A stretch of DNA of 64,000 bases, taken from IMG/VR virus record IMGVR_UViG_3300023179_000031, positions 58,467 through 122,466 of that record; one strand, 5' to 3'. The stretch comes from a virus. Numbering within the stretch: position 1 is the first letter of the stretch; the number at the start of each line of letters is the position of its first letter. Both the position numbers and the translations under genes were made by a program. Below are positions 4,917 through 64,000 of the stretch, piece by piece. The notes under the pieces are model-generated. The model worked only from the letters and a program-made list of their open reading frames with translations. It ran no database searches and had not been told where the DNA came from.

Positions 4917-5438
4917 ATGACAAAACAATCAATAGAAAGTTTATTACAATCGCAGTCTCAAGATGTTGCTGGATATTCTAGCGATACCGTAATTGAGCTA
5001 CTTAAAAAATCACTAAACATTCACTGGCAGCAAACAACCGTTATGTCTGCACAAGCTGTACATCTTGATCGCTGGGGCTATAAGAAGCTTGCGGCAATTT
5101 TTAAAGAAGATGCACTACAAGAGCATCAACATGCTATGATTAATCTTGGTAGATTAGAGTTTTTCGACGCTGACTATCAACCGCTAACAGTATCGCCGCC
5201 AGTATGGACTAGGCATGATATTTTAGCAATGATTAACTACAACCTTGATTCGGTTCGCCAAGCCTCTGCTGCTGAAAGAGCTACAATCGTGGCAGCTAGG
5301 AGCGTTGGCGATGAATTAACGGCTAACGTAATGATTACTTTGCTACAAGGCTCAGAGGATGGAATTGAGCTTTATGAAGGAATGTTGAAGCTTATTGAGC
5401 AAATGGGTCTTGACAACTTCCTAACGCTACAGGTATAA
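4917..5438 (+). CDS. Ferritin-like (bacterioferritin-type) protein with degenerate iron site
   Basis: The 173-aa protein aligns by eye over its whole length with bacterioferritin: helix A (LLKKSLNIHWQQTT), WGYKKL after it, EHQH in helix B, and a C-terminal MLKLIEQMGLDNFL close to the bacterioferritin end. The ferroxidase site is incomplete. The EMKH motif is EHQH, so Glu51 and His54 equivalents are kept and the haem Met52 position is His, but Glu18 aligns with Ser and His130 with Ile. Iron storage is therefore doubtful; a DNA-protection, scaffold or virion role is possible. The ribosome site AAGGA precedes ATG. A short GC hairpin with Ts follows the stop. Confidence 0.7.
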   Translation: MTKQSIESLLQSQSQDVAGYSSDTVIELLKKSLNIHWQQTTVMSAQAVHLDRWGYKKLAAIFKEDALQEHQHAMINLGRLEFFDADYQPLTVSPPVWTRHDILAMINYNLDSVRQASAAERATIVAARSVGDELTANVMITLLQGSEDGIELYEGMLKLIEQMGLDNFLTLQV

Positions 5439-5439
5439 T

Positions 5440-5456
5440 TGCCTGTCGGCATTTTT
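5440..5456 (+). terminator. Short terminator-like hairpin after the ferritin-like gene
   Basis: TGCC (5440-5443) and GGCA (5448-5451) can pair around a TGTC loop and are followed directly by five Ts. The stem is only 4 bp, so termination would be weak. It lies just past the ferritin-like stop codon. Confidence 0.35.
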
Positions 5457-5469
5457 GTTGGTTGGACGG

Positions 5470-5475
5470 TATAAT
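5470..5475 (+). promoter_or_regulatory. Possible -10 element upstream of the polymerase gene
   Basis: A perfect TATAAT lies in the 82-bp gap before the DNA polymerase gene, about 45 bp upstream of the ATG. No good -35 box is found at 16-18 bp spacing, so use by host sigma70 is uncertain. An activator-dependent or phage-modified polymerase promoter would also fit. Confidence 0.3.
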
Positions 5476-5520
5476 AGTTTGATAGCTACTGCATACACAT
5501 TGAATTGACAAGGAAAGTAT

Positions 5521-7125
5521 ATGTTGAACTGGTTTCCTCTGAATAACTATACTCATTATAGTTTGCTAAAAGGTTTTTCTAAGCCAGAAGAATTGGCTGA
5601 TAAATGCAAAGAAAACGGTTATCCAGCCTGTGGTATTTGTGACTATAAGACAATATCTGGCGCTATATCTTTTTACAAAGCCTGCAAAAGTGCTGGCATA
5701 AAGCCTATAATTGGCTGTTCTTTTGATAAGTTCAAAGTTTTTGCTAAGAACAAGTCTGGATGGCATGACCTAATTGAATTAGTGTCATCTATAGATGAGA
5801 GTGGTGATTTATCAGAAGATTTATTTAGTAAGATCTTTGATAGAAAAAATCTCATTAAAATATCAAATGTTGCAAGTAAGTCTATGCCAGATAGTTATTA
5901 TGCAAATAAAGAGGACGCAAAGCTGCATAGAATACTTCTATGTTCAGACATGAAAACAACCCTACCAAAAATTAATAAGGCTATTAAGCAAGAAAAAAAC
6001 GCCAGCTTACTCATGGATAATCATGCAGACAAGCTAGATTATTTCCTATTTGATAAGTTTTATCTACTAGATAAAGAAGAATCTAAGGGACTAGAAACAA
6101 CTAAGCTAGAAGAGATTTACAATCAGTGCGAAGACTATGATATTTTAAGTAAGCCAAATCTTCCAAAGTTTGCTTGCCCAAACAATCAGTCAGAAGAAGA
6201 CTATCTTAAGGAACTTTGTCGCATTGGATGGAAGAATCTATTAATCGATAATGATAAAGTTTCTAAGCCAGAAGACAAGCAGAAATATCTAGATAGATTT
6301 AAAGAAGAGTTTGACGTTATTAAGGGTGCTAACCTGTTCGGATATTTTCTAATCGTTCATGATATTATACATTATTGCGAAAGTCAAGGTTGGCTTTGTG
6401 GTCCCGGCAGAGGTTCTGCTGCTGGATGTTTAATATCTTATCTAATTGGAATTACAAAGATTGATCCACTAGAGTTTGATCTTCTGTTTGCACGTTTTTA
6501 TAATGCCGGTAGAAATAGTGAAGATCATATTTCTTTGCCAGATATTGATATGGACGTTCCCGGTAACAAGAGGGATGAAGTTATAGCTTATCTGAAGGAC
6601 AAGTATGGACACGACCACGTTAGCCAAATGATTACATTCGGCAGATTACGCGGCAGAAGCGCAATTAAAGAAGTGTTACGAGTTAATGAAGCTTGTTCTT
6701 TTAGTGAAATGAACGCTATAACCAAAAGCGTACCAAACGAAGCTGAAATCTCAGATCAGCTTGCAGATATGGATGACGAAGAAAGATCTATTATTAGGTG
6801 GGCATTAATTAATAGGTCAAGTGACTTGAGAGATTTTTGCTATATCAATGATGATGGAAAACTAGAAGGAAACTATGCCGAATATTTTGAGCAAGCCATA
6901 AAGATTGAGGGTACATTTAAAACGCAGGGAAAACATGCTGCCGGTGTTGTTATCTCTGCTAAAAGATTGAATACGGTTTGCCCAATGGTAAAGCAGCGTG
7001 GATCGACTGAAAAGATTGCAGGACTTGAAATGTCAGACCTTGAAAGTCTAGGTCATGTCAAATTTGATATTTTAGGAATTACGCTCTTGGATAAATTGAT
7101 GTATATCCAGAAAACTTGTGTATAG
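5521..7125 (+). CDS. dnaE: DNA polymerase III alpha, N-terminal half (PHP, palm; all three catalytic Asp)
   Basis: Residues 1-70 are a PHP domain whose metal motif is degenerate (CDYK at 40-43 where active PHP domains have TDHG), as in E. coli DnaE. GPGRGSAAG (294-302) and PDIDMD (340-345) supply catalytic Asp341 and Asp343. QGKHAAGVVIS (469-479) and VKFDILG with Asp516 follow. The frame then ends at residue 534, in the linker that in intact enzymes leads to the FQLES motif. That motif opens the separate C-terminal half at 8517. The two halves add up to about 1060 aa, close to a complete phage or bacterial alpha subunit, with almost nothing missing at the break. The stop is TAG. An AAGGA ribosome site precedes the ATG. 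Confidence 0.9.
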   Translation: MLNWFPLNNYTHYSLLKGFSKPEELADKCKENGYPACGICDYKTISGAISFYKACKSAGIKPIIGCSFDKFKVFAKNKSGWHDLIELVSSIDESGDLSEDLFSKIFDRKNLIKISNVASKSMPDSYYANKEDAKLHRILLCSDMKTTLPKINKAIKQEKNASLLMDNHADKLDYFLFDKFYLLDKEESKGLETTKLEEIYNQCEDYDILSKPNLPKFACPNNQSEEDYLKELCRIGWKNLLIDNDKVSKPEDKQKYLDRFKEEFDVIKGANLFGYFLIVHDIIHYCESQGWLCGPGRGSAAGCLISYLIGITKIDPLEFDLLFARFYNAGRNSEDHISLPDIDMDVPGNKRDEVIAYLKDKYGHDHVSQMITFGRLRGRSAIKEVLRVNEACSFSEMNAITKSVPNEAEISDQLADMDDEERSIIRWALINRSSDLRDFCYINDDGKLEGNYAEYFEQAIKIEGTFKTQGKHAAGVVISAKRLNTVCPMVKQRGSTEKIAGLEMSDLESLGHVKFDILGITLLDKLMYIQKTCV

Positions 7126-7161
7126 TATTACGTCAAACTTTACACCCACTGGAGATTAACC

Positions 7162-7857
7162 ATGATTACTCATGAAAAATTAAAGCAAATGCTTCATTTA
7201 GAAAATAAGAGCCAAAGAGAAATATCACAAGAACTGGGCATTAGCGAGGCTTGCGTTTCGCAGTACGCTAAAAAATATGGATTAAGGAGAAAGCCAGAAG
7301 AAAGATATATTGGTAAAAGATTTGGAATATTAACGGGTAAAAAGGTTGTTGGTCAGGACGATTATTCTCATAATATGATTGAATGTGTTTGTGATTGTGG
7401 TAATACAATTGTCATTGTGTGCCACTCTTTAACAAGTGGTAATACAAAAAGCTGCGGGTGTGAAGCAAGAAAGCGTGGAAAAGATCGTGCAAACTATCGC
7501 GGTTATGAAAATATCCAACAAAGTTATTGGAGTAGTATAATTAAAGGTGCCGATAAAAGAAATTTAGAAATGTCTATTTCAGTTGAATATGCTTGGAGTC
7601 TATATGAAAAGCAAGGTAAAAAATGCGCTGTAACTGGAGTGCCAATATTTTTTCCACAAACAAGAAAAACTGCAAATAAATCGACAGCATCACTAGATAG
7701 AATAGATAATACAAAGGGCTACATTGAAGGAAACGTGCAATGGGTACATAAGAAAATAAATCAAATTAAAATGGATTTGACAATTGAAGATTTTTTTGAA
7801 TTATGCAAAAGCGTAGTTAATTATAACAATTTATTGGAGAAACAGAATGGCAAATAG
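7162..7857 (+). CDS. HNH homing endonuclease inserted in the broken polymerase locus
   Basis: The protein has three parts: an N-terminal helix-turn-helix (residues about 15-40, REISQELGISEACVSQYAKK), a zinc-ribbon-like segment (CVCDCG at 75-80 and SCGC at 97-100), and a C-terminal HNH core (CAVTG at 155, SLDRIDNTKGY about 177-187, GNVQWVH about 190-196). This is the make-up of phage HNH homing endonucleases, which cut alleles lacking the element. It sits between the polymerase halves. Its start is in frame with the upstream half, separated by one TAG and 12 sense codons. Its end overlaps the exonuclease start by 11 bases. GGAG is the ribosome site. Confidence 0.85.
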   Translation: MITHEKLKQMLHLENKSQREISQELGISEACVSQYAKKYGLRRKPEERYIGKRFGILTGKKVVGQDDYSHNMIECVCDCGNTIVIVCHSLTSGNTKSCGCEARKRGKDRANYRGYENIQQSYWSSIIKGADKRNLEMSISVEYAWSLYEKQGKKCAVTGVPIFFPQTRKTANKSTASLDRIDNTKGYIEGNVQWVHKKINQIKMDLTIEDFFELCKSVVNYNNLLEKQNGK

Positions 7858-8527
7858 AGATTTTGTCGTGTTCGATTTTGAAACGGGAAGTAGGAATCCT
7901 CACAGAACTCAGCCAACACAAATTGCAGCATTAGCTATTGATGGTCGCAATCTATCTGTTAAGGGTCAATTTAATAGTGAGATTAAGCCCATATTTGAGG
8001 ATGAGTTAGCTATTGCCGCTGGGTTTGATCCACTAGAAGATGAGGCTTTAAAAATTACAGGAAAAACAAGAGAGGGTCTTGCTAATGCTCCATCTCTGAA
8101 GTCAGTGTGGTCTAAGTTTACAAAGTTTGTTGATCAGTATAACTGGAAGGGTGATTCTTTTTATGCTCCAATTCCAGTTGGATTTAACATTGTAGGTTTC
8201 GACTTAATTATTGTGAATAGGTTATGCAAGGAATTTGGCCCTTGGGATAAGGATAAAGAACATCAAAAGCTATTTAGCAAGGTGTACAAGGTGGATATAA
8301 TGGATAATGTCTTTCTATGGACAGAAGGTGATCCAAGTGTTAAGTCTATTAGCATGGATTCACTGAGGCAAAGAATGGGACTAAGTAAAGAAAATGCTCA
8401 CGACGCTTTGCAAGACGTTAAAGATGAGGCTAATATATTCATCAAGCTATTAAAAACACATAGGTCCGTGTATCAGAATATTACTTTTGAAAATGCGTTT
8501 GCCAACGGTGGATTATATGTCAAATAA
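7847..8527 (+). CDS. DnaQ-like DEDDh 3'-5' proofreading exonuclease
   Basis: DFETG (D10, E12), a central NIVGFD (D119) and AHDALQD (H185, D190) make a complete DEDDh exonuclease active site, as in the Pol III epsilon subunit DnaQ. Since the polymerase PHP domain lacks metal ligands, this separate enzyme is the likely proofreader. Its position inside the broken polymerase gene should give co-expression with both halves. The start (ATG 7847, GGAG upstream) overlaps the HNH stop. The end overlaps the start of the C-terminal polymerase half by 11 bases. At 226 aa it is a normal single-domain length. Confidence 0.85.
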   Translation: MANRDFVVFDFETGSRNPHRTQPTQIAALAIDGRNLSVKGQFNSEIKPIFEDELAIAAGFDPLEDEALKITGKTREGLANAPSLKSVWSKFTKFVDQYNWKGDSFYAPIPVGFNIVGFDLIIVNRLCKEFGPWDKDKEHQKLFSKVYKVDIMDNVFLWTEGDPSVKSISMDSLRQRMGLSKENAHDALQDVKDEANIFIKLLKTHRSVYQNITFENAFANGGLYVK

Positions 8528-10097
8528 TGTAAATATTGATTATAACTGCAAAAAGACTTGGGGATTGTTTGCTGAAGGCAAGACCAAAGGGATCTTTCAG
8601 CTAGAAAGTAACCTTGGGAAATCATGGTCTAAAAAACTAGCTCCGACAAATCTAGAAGAGCTATCAGCATTGATTGCTATCATTAGGCCGGGAACTCTTA
8701 AAGCATTTGTCGATGGCAAGAGCATGACGCAGCACTATGTTGATAGAAAGCATGGTAGAGAAGAAGTAACTTATTTGCATGAATCTCTAGAAGAAATATT
8801 AAAGCCAACATATGGTGTGCTTGTGTACCAAGAGCAGTCAATGCGTATTGCACAAAAAGTTGCTGGATTTAATCTTCAAGAGGCTGACGTTTTACGCAAG
8901 GCAATCGGTAAGAAAAAGGCCGACCTCATGAATGAAGTAAAGAAGTCATTTATAGAGGGTTCTCAAAAAGTTGGAATAGTTACTAAAGAAGAAGCAGAGC
9001 AAATCTTTGGATGGATCGAAAAGTCTGCACGATATGCTTTTAATAAATCTCATAGCGTTTCATATGCAATGTGTTCGTATTGGAGTGCATATTATAAAGC
9101 GCATTACACTCCTCAGTTTTTTCTATCGTATCTACACTATGCAAATGAAAAGCAAGATCCACATAGAGAAATATATGAGCTTATCTCAGAGGCAAAATTA
9201 TTTGACATTCAATTAAGAACTCCAAATATTACAAATTTTAGTAACAAGTTTGTTCTTAGGGAAAACAATAAGATTTATTTTGGTGTAAAGGATATAAAGT
9301 CATTAACTGGCAAAACCGGCGATGCTCTTGAAGAAGCTATAAAACTAGCAGAGCAAGCATCTGGAAAAAAAATATCATCTTTTTCTTGGTTAGATGTTCT
9401 TGTATTTTTTAGTCCATATGTTAATTCTACATCTTTTAAAGCTTTAGCGTCTGTTGGATTTTTTAGGGGCTTTAAGGAAAAAGTATCTCGCAATAAAGCA
9501 TTGTATGATTATGATATATTTAAGACTTTAACAAAGGCTGAACAGACTTGGATATCAAACAACTACGAAGCTAAAAAGTGGACATCATTCGTAGAGTGCC
9601 TTAAAGACTTGGCACCAACTAAAAAAGAGGGCGGTGGCACAAGCAAAGTTGACAGAAAACAGGCTATTACAAATGAGATACAGCTACTTATTGATCCACC
9701 ATACGATCTTGAAGATGATGCAGGCTGGATTATTGATCAAGAAACAAAGTTCTTAGGTTGTCCGGTAACATTGTCTAGAATTGAAACATCTGATAGCTCT
9801 GCCGCAAACACTACTTGCAAAGAAATTATCAATGGTAAAAAGGGTAAGGATTTGTGTGTTGTGGCAAATATACAAAGGTTATCAGATTATACGATAACCA
9901 AGGGCGAATCAAAGGGGCAAATCATGTCATTTCTAACCATAGAAGATGAATCATGTATGCTTGATAGCGTGATTGTGTTTCCTCAAGTAAAAGAGAAATA
10001 TAGATATGTATTATACGAAGGTAACAATCTAATTTTTTGTGGATCTGTAACAGGTCAAGACAATGCGTTTATTGTCAACAAGATTCATGAAATTTGA
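8517..10097 (+). CDS. dnaE: DNA polymerase III alpha, C-terminal half (fingers, beta-binding region, OB fold)
   Basis: The protein begins a few residues before FQLES (27-31) and continues with IRPGTL, RKHGREEVTY and the fingers segment GVLVYQEQSM ... EADVLRKAIGKKK, in the same order as intact DnaE. The last ~90 residues are an OB-fold (VVANIQRLSDYTITKGE ... FLTIEDE). No catalytic Asp is present, so it needs the N-terminal half at 5521-7125. I chose ATG 8517, with GGTGGA upstream and overlap with the exonuclease end, over an in-frame TTG at 8487. No intein residues are seen at the start, so the halves probably associate without splicing. Confidence 0.88.
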   Translation: MSNNVNIDYNCKKTWGLFAEGKTKGIFQLESNLGKSWSKKLAPTNLEELSALIAIIRPGTLKAFVDGKSMTQHYVDRKHGREEVTYLHESLEEILKPTYGVLVYQEQSMRIAQKVAGFNLQEADVLRKAIGKKKADLMNEVKKSFIEGSQKVGIVTKEEAEQIFGWIEKSARYAFNKSHSVSYAMCSYWSAYYKAHYTPQFFLSYLHYANEKQDPHREIYELISEAKLFDIQLRTPNITNFSNKFVLRENNKIYFGVKDIKSLTGKTGDALEEAIKLAEQASGKKISSFSWLDVLVFFSPYVNSTSFKALASVGFFRGFKEKVSRNKALYDYDIFKTLTKAEQTWISNNYEAKKWTSFVECLKDLAPTKKEGGGTSKVDRKQAITNEIQLLIDPPYDLEDDAGWIIDQETKFLGCPVTLSRIETSDSSAANTTCKEIINGKKGKDLCVVANIQRLSDYTITKGESKGQIMSFLTIEDESCMLDSVIVFPQVKEKYRYVLYEGNNLIFCGSVTGQDNAFIVNKIHEI

Positions 10098-17437: not shown

Positions 17438-18205
17438 ATGAATCAGAAACAGATTGTAGACTTATATACCAAAGAAAATAAAAGCACATATGAAATAGCA
17501 GAAATGCTACATACTTATCCAAATAAAATCCGTAGAATTCTAATTAAGAACGGGGTTGAAATTAAAGACAAGAGTCAAGCTCAAAAGAATGCTATTATTA
17601 AAGGTACAGCAAAAATACCAACACAAGGATTACACAGAACACAAGAAGAAAAACTAAAAATAAGCGAGAGCTTAAGAAAAAATTGGGAAAATATGGGAGA
17701 GTATGAGTACAATCAGAGGGTTGACAAAGCTAGAAGCAGATGGCATAATATGGAAGAGTCTGAGAAGGATCGTATCCTAGCATTGGCTATCAAGGGTGTT
17801 CAGATTGCTGGCAAAGAGGGATCAAAACTCGAAAAGTTTATTCAGCGAGAATTAACTAAAGAAGGATATAAAGTTGATTTTCATAAGAAGCAATTAATAG
17901 CAAATGAAAATCTAGAAATAGATATATCTTTACCAGAGATAAAAACGATTATTGAGATTGATGGTCCATCACACTTTTTGCCGATTTGGGGAGAAGAAAA
18001 GTTGCAAAAACAAATTCGTTCCGACTCGCACAAGACGGGGTTGATTTTGAGCAAGGGATGGGCTATAATCAGAGTGAAGAACCTGTCGGACACTGTTGCA
18101 TTGAGTGCTAAAGAGCATCTTAAAAATCAGTTGATTACGCTGTTGAATAATATCAAAACCAAGTTTCCAGATAAATCAGAAAGGTATATTGAGATAGAAA
18201 TATGA
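17438..18205 (+). CDS. Homing endonuclease of Vsr/EDxHD type with HTH and NUMOD3-like region
   Basis: Residues 1-40 are a helix-turn-helix (STYEIAEMLHTYPNKIRRIL). Residues about 66-110 look like a NUMOD3-type DNA-binding region (RTQEEKLKISESLRKNW). The C-terminal domain (KLEKFIQRELTKEGYKVDF ... IDISLPEIKTIIEIDGPSHF ... GWAIIRVKN) is a Vsr/DUF559-like PD-(D/E)XK nuclease, with ExDGxxH as the catalytic core. This matches the EDxHD homing endonucleases known from phages and fractured genes. It stands free between the glycan block and the annealing protein gene and probably cuts endonuclease-less relatives at this locus. Confidence 0.7.
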   Translation: MNQKQIVDLYTKENKSTYEIAEMLHTYPNKIRRILIKNGVEIKDKSQAQKNAIIKGTAKIPTQGLHRTQEEKLKISESLRKNWENMGEYEYNQRVDKARSRWHNMEESEKDRILALAIKGVQIAGKEGSKLEKFIQRELTKEGYKVDFHKKQLIANENLEIDISLPEIKTIIEIDGPSHFLPIWGEEKLQKQIRSDSHKTGLILSKGWAIIRVKNLSDTVALSAKEHLKNQLITLLNNIKTKFPDKSERYIEIEI

Positions 18206-58059: not shown

Positions 58060-58541
58060 ACTCTTTTCCAAAAACAGGCGAAATATCTGTCTTGTTTGAT
58101 GCCCATTGGTATAAATTCGCCAACTCTTTCAAATCTCATTTCTTTGTAATCTTTAATGTTTTTATGGGCTATTAGCTGTTTTGCTTTAAGCACATTTGGT
58201 AAATCAGACATTAAGCCAATGGTTTGAATAGATCCATCTGGTATTTTAATATCACTAGTTACTCCAATCCACTGTTTAGAATCCCAATATACTTTTAATT
58301 TAATATCAGTTAGAGTCTCTACTTCTTTAAATGTTTTGTGTCCAACATCATAAACTGAATTACCGCCAGTTCGGTGTGCATTAATTGAGTTTTTATTAGG
58401 AACATTGTTATTTGGATTGTATACAACTTCTTCTATTTTGTTAATGGAAACAAGTTGACATGTTACTCCAAAAATATCAAACGTAGAGTCTATTAACTCA
58501 TAGTATTTATCGAATACAGATTGTGAAATATTAAGTGGCAT
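58056..58541 (-). CDS. Putative head-tail connector or neck protein
   Basis: The 161-aa protein (MPLNISQSVFDKYYELIDSTFDIFGVTCQLVSINKIEEVVYNP) ends with RYFACFWKRV. Small basic beta-rich proteins in this place are often head-tail joining or tail-terminator proteins. No specific motif is visible. It overlaps the gene upstream by one base and the gene downstream by ATGA, so it is part of a tightly coupled set. Confidence 0.45.
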   Translation of the reverse strand: MPLNISQSVFDKYYELIDSTFDIFGVTCQLVSINKIEEVVYNPNNNVPNKNSINAHRTGGNSVYDVGHKTFKEVETLTDIKLKVYWDSKQWIGVTSDIKIPDGSIQTIGLMSDLPNVLKAKQLIAHKNIKDYKEMRFERVGEFIPMGIKQDRYFACFWKRV

Positions 58542-63607: not shown

Positions 63608-64000
63608 CTATCTAAAGTTCGCCCATAAATAAAGATTAATTGTTGCTTGCGCATTGCCAGATAATTTATTATTAGAAATTGTGCCATCAATAATATCATT
63701 ACCAGAATGAGTATGTGAACTTGGTGCATAGCTACCAGATGGTTGCTTCCCATCCAAGGCTGTTTGCAGCCCGCTTACATCTGCTATCAAGTGGTTGTGA
63801 CTAAGGGCAGCGTAGCTACCAGATGGTTGCTTCCCATCCAAGGCTGTTTGCAGCCCGCTTACATCTGCTATCAAGTGGTTGTGACTAAGGGCAGCGTAGC
63901 TACCAGATGGTTGCTTCCCATCCAAGGCTGTTTGCAGCCCGCTTACATCTGCTATCAAGTGGTTGTGACTAAGGGCAGCGTAGCTACCAGATGGTTGCTT
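63608..64000 (-). CDS. Tail fibre with 28-aa tandem repeats (5'-truncated by window edge)
   Basis: The visible part is made of 28-residue repeats (LIADVSGLQTALDGKQPSGS then YAALSHNH), a shaft repeat typical of trimeric tail fibres. The last repeat varies (YAPSSHTH) and is followed by a short tip (SGNDIIDGTISNNKLSGNAQATINLYLWANFR). The frame is open through base 64000, so the gene starts outside the window. Only the C-terminal end is here. The DNA repeats are perfect, which suggests recent expansion. Confidence 0.75.
   Translation of the reverse strand, partial: KQPSGSYAALSHNHLIADVSGLQTALDGKQPSGSYAALSHNHLIADVSGLQTALDGKQPSGSYAALSHNHLIADVSGLQTALDGKQPSGSYAPSSHTHSGNDIIDGTISNNKLSGNAQATINLYLWANFR
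63731..64000. repeat. 84-bp perfect tandem repeats in the tail fibre gene
   Basis: Three identical 84-bp units (63731-63814, 63815-63898, 63899-63982) and the start of a fourth (63983-64000) continue past the edge. Each encodes one 28-aa fibre repeat. There are no spacers, so it is not a CRISPR array. Confidence 0.92.

Follow-up and report, generated by a model that had tools for sequence, protein, structure and literature searches.

The DNA considered here is a 64,000-nucleotide (nt) stretch, referred to below as the window, which forms the right end of the 122,466-base viral record IMGVR_UViG_3300023179_000031 (positions 58,467 to 122,466). Between positions 5521 and 10097 it encodes a bacterial-type family-C replicative polymerase, DnaE, as two separate genes (dnaE-N and dnaE-C, the N-half and the C-half), with genes for an HNH endonuclease and a DEDDh 3'-5' exonuclease lying in the gap (Table 1). 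We propose that this is an ancestrally split replicase to which the HNH gene was added later. A preliminary description, made from the sequence alone, had placed all four genes at the coordinates and in the frames that we find; it had also named another intact DNA polymerase in the same genome as an observation that would speak against its interpretation, and no second polymerase of family A, B or C was found in the 122-kb record.

Table 1. Features of the split dnaE locus in the window (aa, amino acids).
Feature	Position	Strand	Size and basis
dnaE-N	5521..7125	+	534 aa; PHP and complete palm/thumb; Pfam, NCBIfam and PHROG matches, motifs
HNH-carried tract: final dnaE-N codons and HNH gene leader	7070..7161	+	identity to L004
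Free-standing HNH homing-type endonuclease, HTH-like (helix-turn-helix) N-terminus	7162..7857	+	231 aa; PHROG HNH/endonuclease families, E 1e-24
DEDDh 3'-5' exonuclease	7847..8527	+	226 aa; RNase_T, E=1.7e-13; exonuclease motifs
HNH stop/exonuclease start overlap	7847..7857	+	11 nt
dnaE-C: finger domain, HHH, C-terminal region	8517..10097	+	526 aa; ATG at 8517; DNA_pol3_finger, E=1.4e-47; PHROG and NCBIfam DnaE models
Exonuclease stop/dnaE-C start overlap	8517..8527	+	11 nt

The break coincides with the palm/finger boundary of family-C polymerases. The N-half comprises the PHP domain and the full DNA_pol3_alpha domain (profile positions 2-260 of 260) and contains all three catalytic aspartates, in PDIDMD (residues 340-345) and VKFDILG (residues 513-519, including Asp516), while the C-half begins within the finger domain (from profile position 24), carries FQLES at its residue 27 and gives a weak match to HHH_6. 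These motif positions agree with the preliminary description, and so does its statement that nothing conserved is missing: on the model TIGR00594 the N-half reaches position 566 and the C-half resumes at 584, which indicates that only a variable linker is absent between them. Set against structures of E. coli DnaE, the profile of the C-half starts at residue 592. The palm with its catalytic aspartates, the finger domain, PHP and the C-terminal modules of a bacterial-type DnaE are thus all present; the locus departs from this type in not forming a single chain and in its PHP metal-binding His motifs. The HxH-type metal ligands of PHP have been lost in the clade of the window (LNNYTHYS, ICDYKT) and are kept in its relative L075 (LHLHTHYS, LTDHGT); their loss fits proofreading by a separate exonuclease.

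Scans with alignments of each part yielded 170 metagenomic loci in which N-half, exonuclease and C-half are all present and whose exonuclease genes are distinct from one another. In every one of these viral loci the order is N-half, exonuclease, C-half, with a stop in the N-half frame ahead of the C-half and the C-half frame closed upstream, after the N-half, and none of the 170 contains an unsplit member of the clade. The search of related phages that the preliminary description had recommended therefore found the split without the HNH gene widely and an unsplit gene in none, and the recurrence of the identical break in so many distinct loci disposes of the assembly artefact that it had raised as a possible objection. 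The split order is kept in divergent clades at 44-55% identity, among them an L075-type clade in which an additional, conserved 78-aa open reading frame (ORF; L075:9898-10134) separates dnaE-N from the exonuclease gene, and L359-L375, which are merely 44-48% identical to L075. The nearest unsplit DnaE proteins, from isolated phages, are about 30% identical. In a tree of 20 rows (13 split, 7 unsplit) one branch, with a support of 100/100, sets the split forms apart from the unsplit ones, which is consistent with, and does not prove, a single origin of the split, given the small tree sample and a root position that is not fixed. Taken with the relatives at 60-92% identity that lack the window's HNH gene and are nevertheless split at the identical place, these comparisons argue that the split is an old and conserved arrangement across a large group of uncultured phages. 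A scan of genome contigs placed one clade member (L393) in a contig of a SAR202 metagenome-assembled genome (MAG), and identified an unsplit fusion of exonuclease and DnaE, only distantly related, in a Flavobacteriales MAG (L394). As a possible cultured example we considered Bacteroides phage SJC03, which has an exonuclease with 30% identity, and rejected it as unrelated, the next gene being a terminase.

The exonuclease carries the motifs FDFET, GFNIVGFD and NAHDALQDV, supplying the D-E, D and H-x4-D signature of DEDDh enzymes on a fold of the RNase_T family. Inserts at its boundaries were surveyed in 92 distinct loci of the nearer set. The N-half/exonuclease boundary is empty in 61 of them and the exonuclease/C-half boundary in 46, with both insert-free in 31; the first boundary holds a 160-aa ORF (12 loci), HNH genes (7), FkbM-type methyltransferase genes (5) or others (7), and the second holds endonuclease VII-like genes (32) or others (14). 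Most insert-free loci have an exonuclease ATG that overlaps the N-half stop by 8-14 nt, usually by 8 or 11. A match to the Shine-Dalgarno sequence, 4 nt or longer, precedes the exonuclease start in 97% of the 61 loci empty at that boundary, compared with 27% of internal ATGs; no corresponding excess was detected at the C-half start (37%). The C-half start overlaps the preceding stop in 45 of the 46 loci insert-free at this boundary and also in 27 of the 32 that bear endonuclease VII-like genes. Since the overlap occurs in both classes, the C-half start seems to be set against whichever stop precedes it, with inserted genes keeping the overlap, and coupling of termination to restart would be the simplest reading.

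The same overlaps raise the question of whether ribosomes might shift frame at the two junctions, producing an N-half-exonuclease-C-half polyprotein or partial fusions. The relative frames would allow this, the exonuclease being +1 to the N-half in most insert-free loci and the C-half +1 to the exonuclease in all of them. However, the overlap sequences vary and retain no slippery motif, foreign genes occupy the first boundary in about a third of loci and the second in half, and the exonuclease has its own Shine-Dalgarno sequence, so that we consider frameshifting improbable.

The comparisons further indicate that the window's HNH gene is a recent, mobile and free-standing endonuclease that arrived later than the split. 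Relative to locus L004, identity is 97.7% over 7074-7161 and 74.8% over 5521-7073, with the last upstream mismatch at 7069, and the HNH genes agree at 179 of 180 nt (99.4%); a near-identical HNH gene and short dnaE-N end amid such divergence are expected if a homing gene was copied together with a short flank. A different HNH gene occupies the same boundary in L013, for which L011, with surroundings 97% identical, provides the empty counterpart, and L033 and L042 retain just HNH gene fragments there, as after decay. Sporadic presence and a similarity between phages that exceeds that of the flanking DNA characterize free-standing homing endonucleases, and both are seen here; the protein matched PHROG endonuclease families, and no Pfam HNH model passed. 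The overlapping sequence, of the ATGGCAAATAG type, is shared: the HNH protein ends there in ..NGK* (asterisk, stop codon) and insert-free N-halves in ..NG* or ..NGK*, which indicates that the HNH gene took over the stop-start overlap made by the N-half in insert-free relatives.

An insertion of the HNH gene into an intact dnaE, splitting it here in the manner of Aeh1 nrdA, would account for its position within the gap, and the splitting of phage genes by homing genes is well documented (PMC2988022). Against this, HNH-free relatives are split at the same place, the HNH gene arrived recently and brought only the end of dnaE-N with it, and none of the 170 loci provides the intact gene in a close endonuclease-free relative that marks the Aeh1 nrdA case. 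We therefore regard this origin as very unlikely, and the earlier suggestion that the HNH gene had broken the polymerase gene does not hold, as it is absent from most relatives that share the break. As a variant, an older endonuclease could have made the original split, with the endonuclease VII-like genes at the exonuclease/C-half boundary as a point in favour. The HNH start does share the reading frame of the N-half and comes 12 codons past the N-half TAG, as had been described, but the proposed leaky reading into HNH finds no support among HNH carriers: judged from coordinates, the frame match is present in the element of the window and L004, in L013 and in L219, and absent from L036, L088 and L090.

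Other inserts illustrate the traffic at both boundaries. The window and L002 no longer have the endonuclease VII-like gene, and their C-halves start with MSN; the endonuclease VII-like ORFs of L011 and L015 start with MSNK, and we read the MSN start as a probable deletion scar. The 160-aa ORF (L002:9616-10101), found elsewhere upstream in L004 and L074/L075, has no Pfam, NCBIfam or PHROG match; in our reading its YDII..YDVKTK text resembles a PD-(D/E)XK nuclease core. FkbM-type methyltransferase genes are inserted at the N-half/exonuclease boundary of L012 (9571-10254) and L014 (9563-10162), close to both neighbours. Two genes separate the exonuclease and dnaE-C in L360 (8596-9716), one a SET-domain-like ORF by our reading and the other a non-specific DNA/RNA endonuclease (PF01223, E=6e-42). 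Elsewhere in the window, a gene at 17438-18205 with an HTH and a weak DUF559-like (Vsr-type) match is probably a second free-standing endonuclease, and a tail-type protein encoded where the record ends (63608-63958) contains tandem repeats of a short HNHLIADVSGLQTALDGKQPSGSYA unit, which may be the reason that the assembly stops there.

HNH genes borne on introns are common in phages, and the stretch between the halves might accordingly be an intron whose removal rejoins them at the RNA level, an outcome that the preliminary description had named as contrary to its interpretation (for example, removal of 7126-8516). No Rfam intron was found in the window or in eight relatives. Furthermore, where no insert is present the exonuclease ORF takes up the entire gap and overlaps the halves on either side, so that a ribozyme would have no space, and the inserts vary freely in kind and length, so that an intron is hardly to be expected.

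Rejoining by protein trans-splicing through a split intein is exceedingly improbable at the palm/finger break. After KFD(I/V)LG, the N-half tails of 120 loci span 13-31 residues, a length insufficient for half an intein, and the C-half opens at a conserved xYNDKKTW block without a Cys/Ser start or an HN|S/C/T end; no intein blocks flanking the break were seen in the tails and C-half starts that were checked. These features support the earlier proposal of two separate chains without an intein. What favours trans-splicing is that split-intein-like insertions occur elsewhere in these genes in some relatives, namely GPGRG|SAAG in L079, L081 and L219, and FNK|S in L081 and L368 (L079:6760-8030, L081:1660-2960 and 5400-6760, L219:5140-5630, L368:10150-11320). 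These breaks enclose endonuclease genes except in L219 and resemble published fractured genes; the L368 endonuclease shows weak DUF559 and NUMOD3 matches. Their occurrence at two other sites suggests that these replicases are hit often. An extra N-half break near PDIDVD is present in L380 (7254-8250) and L384 (6560-7820), that of L380 holding a LAGLIDADG-type gene. The cyanobacterial DnaE intein site, which we take to be YCFNKSHS, matches RYAFNKSHS at C-half residue 172, so that it lies about 170 residues downstream of the break and not near it, as had been stated.

Ratios of nonsynonymous to synonymous substitution rates (dN/dS) between the window and its relatives were 0.02-0.10 across the N-half, exonuclease and C-half in pairs with estimable dS (dnaE-N 0.04-0.10; dnaE-C 0.03-0.08), and higher for the HNH and endonuclease VII-like genes; the values are rough, synonymous sites being near saturation in several pairs, and their direction is clear. 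They point to strong purifying selection on the three replicase genes and, together with the invariant order and the stop-start overlaps, support the earlier suggestion that the halves and the proofreader may be made as a matched set. A decaying polymerase, with replication relying on that of the host, would be in keeping with the lost PHP metal ligands and with an in-frame stop in the L004 N-half, yet the dN/dS values, the intact and invariant catalytic motifs and the persistence of the genes in 170 loci make decay a most unlikely explanation. The L004 stop lies within GRGSAAG*LISY, in the catalytic part of the N-half and near the intein site of other relatives, and may reflect either sequencing error or decay.

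We therefore favour, with a probability of roughly 0.8, an ancestrally split family-C replicase made from three overlapping and coupled genes and assembled non-covalently, with the exonuclease as proofreader and the HNH gene as a later arrival. The order, the overlaps, the purifying selection and the absence of an intein or intron at the break are read from the sequences themselves; we infer the assembly of the halves from their conservation and from known split enzymes. The exonuclease would start from the Shine-Dalgarno sequence inside the 3' end of dnaE-N, and translation of the C-half would depend mainly on ribosomes that restart after completing the exonuclease, linking the three outputs. 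The palm/thumb half and the finger half would fold against each other non-covalently into one active polymerase, which the exonuclease may proofread. The mobile HNH endonuclease settled at the N-half/exonuclease boundary in a way that kept the stop-start overlap. Three observations weigh against this proposal: some loci lack the overlap; AlphaFold models of single halves (11-12 sequences) are of low confidence, with a mean predicted local distance difference test score of 51-52; and the record is a linear one that perhaps covers part of the genome only, so that a further polymerase could lie elsewhere. A stronger form, in which the replicase is an obligate three-chain complex assembled during translation and the exonuclease gates C-half output and helps to bring or hold the halves together, is doubtful and offered tentatively.

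Several known systems share parts of this arrangement. In PolC the exonuclease is embedded in the PHP domain, and DnaE recruits epsilon in trans; the present replicase resembles both in pairing a family-C polymerase with a DEDDh proofreader, and differs in that its exonuclease has a gene of its own, located between those of the palm and finger halves. In the T4-like Aeromonas phages 25 and 44RR, gp43 is split into 43A and 43B, encoded by adjacent genes with homing-type genes or a spacer between them, and the phage 25 pieces co-purify and have polymerase activity (PMC2988022). This is likewise a phage replicative polymerase in two genes, but gp43 belongs to family B, has an internal proofreading domain with no exonuclease gene in the gap, and is described as split in some Aeromonas phages only (PMC2988022), whereas here a whole clade is split. 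Similarly, Aeh1 NrdA is an essential enzyme in pieces, interrupted by the mobE insertion with an HNH gene at the break and active through non-covalent assembly (PMC2988022); in that case the split, judged against intact relatives, is the work of the endonuclease, whereas here the split predates the HNH gene. Group 2.2 jumbo phages also have a family-C catalytic core in two proteins, a minimal Pol III alpha predicted to reconstitute, but its halves are encoded by distant genes, the other Pol III domains are absent and a family B polymerase is present (PMC7824862); in our clade the region from PHP to the C-terminus is kept, the genes are adjacent with the exonuclease between, and no second polymerase was found. 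Fractured genes with split inteins, namely the PolB gene of phage MIJ3 (PMC6892783) and cyanobacterial DnaE, resemble our locus as split polymerase genes whose parts enclose an endonuclease gene; our break differs from them in having no intein. The annotated DNA polymerase of Alicyclobacillus phage MMB025 (L392, 3132-7494) is likewise encoded by two genes that flank an endonuclease gene, the break being further into the C-terminal part, and constitutes a separate case of split DnaE. In the open-access literature we found no published account of a full family-C replicase split at the palm/finger boundary with its exonuclease encoded between the halves.

One would hardly expect a replicative polymerase to be severed across its catalytic core, yet here an entire phage clade keeps the cut with the proofreader lodged inside it. 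A replicase split can thus stay stable across long divergence, beyond the transient injury of a homing gene, and an endonuclease inside a split gene is not necessarily the cause of the split. The clade offers natural DnaE split sites as well as natural tests of coupled translation as a means of subunit balance. If the obligate three-chain replicase proved true, it would represent a third route to family-C proofreading, beside the embedded exonuclease of PolC and the epsilon subunit of DnaE.

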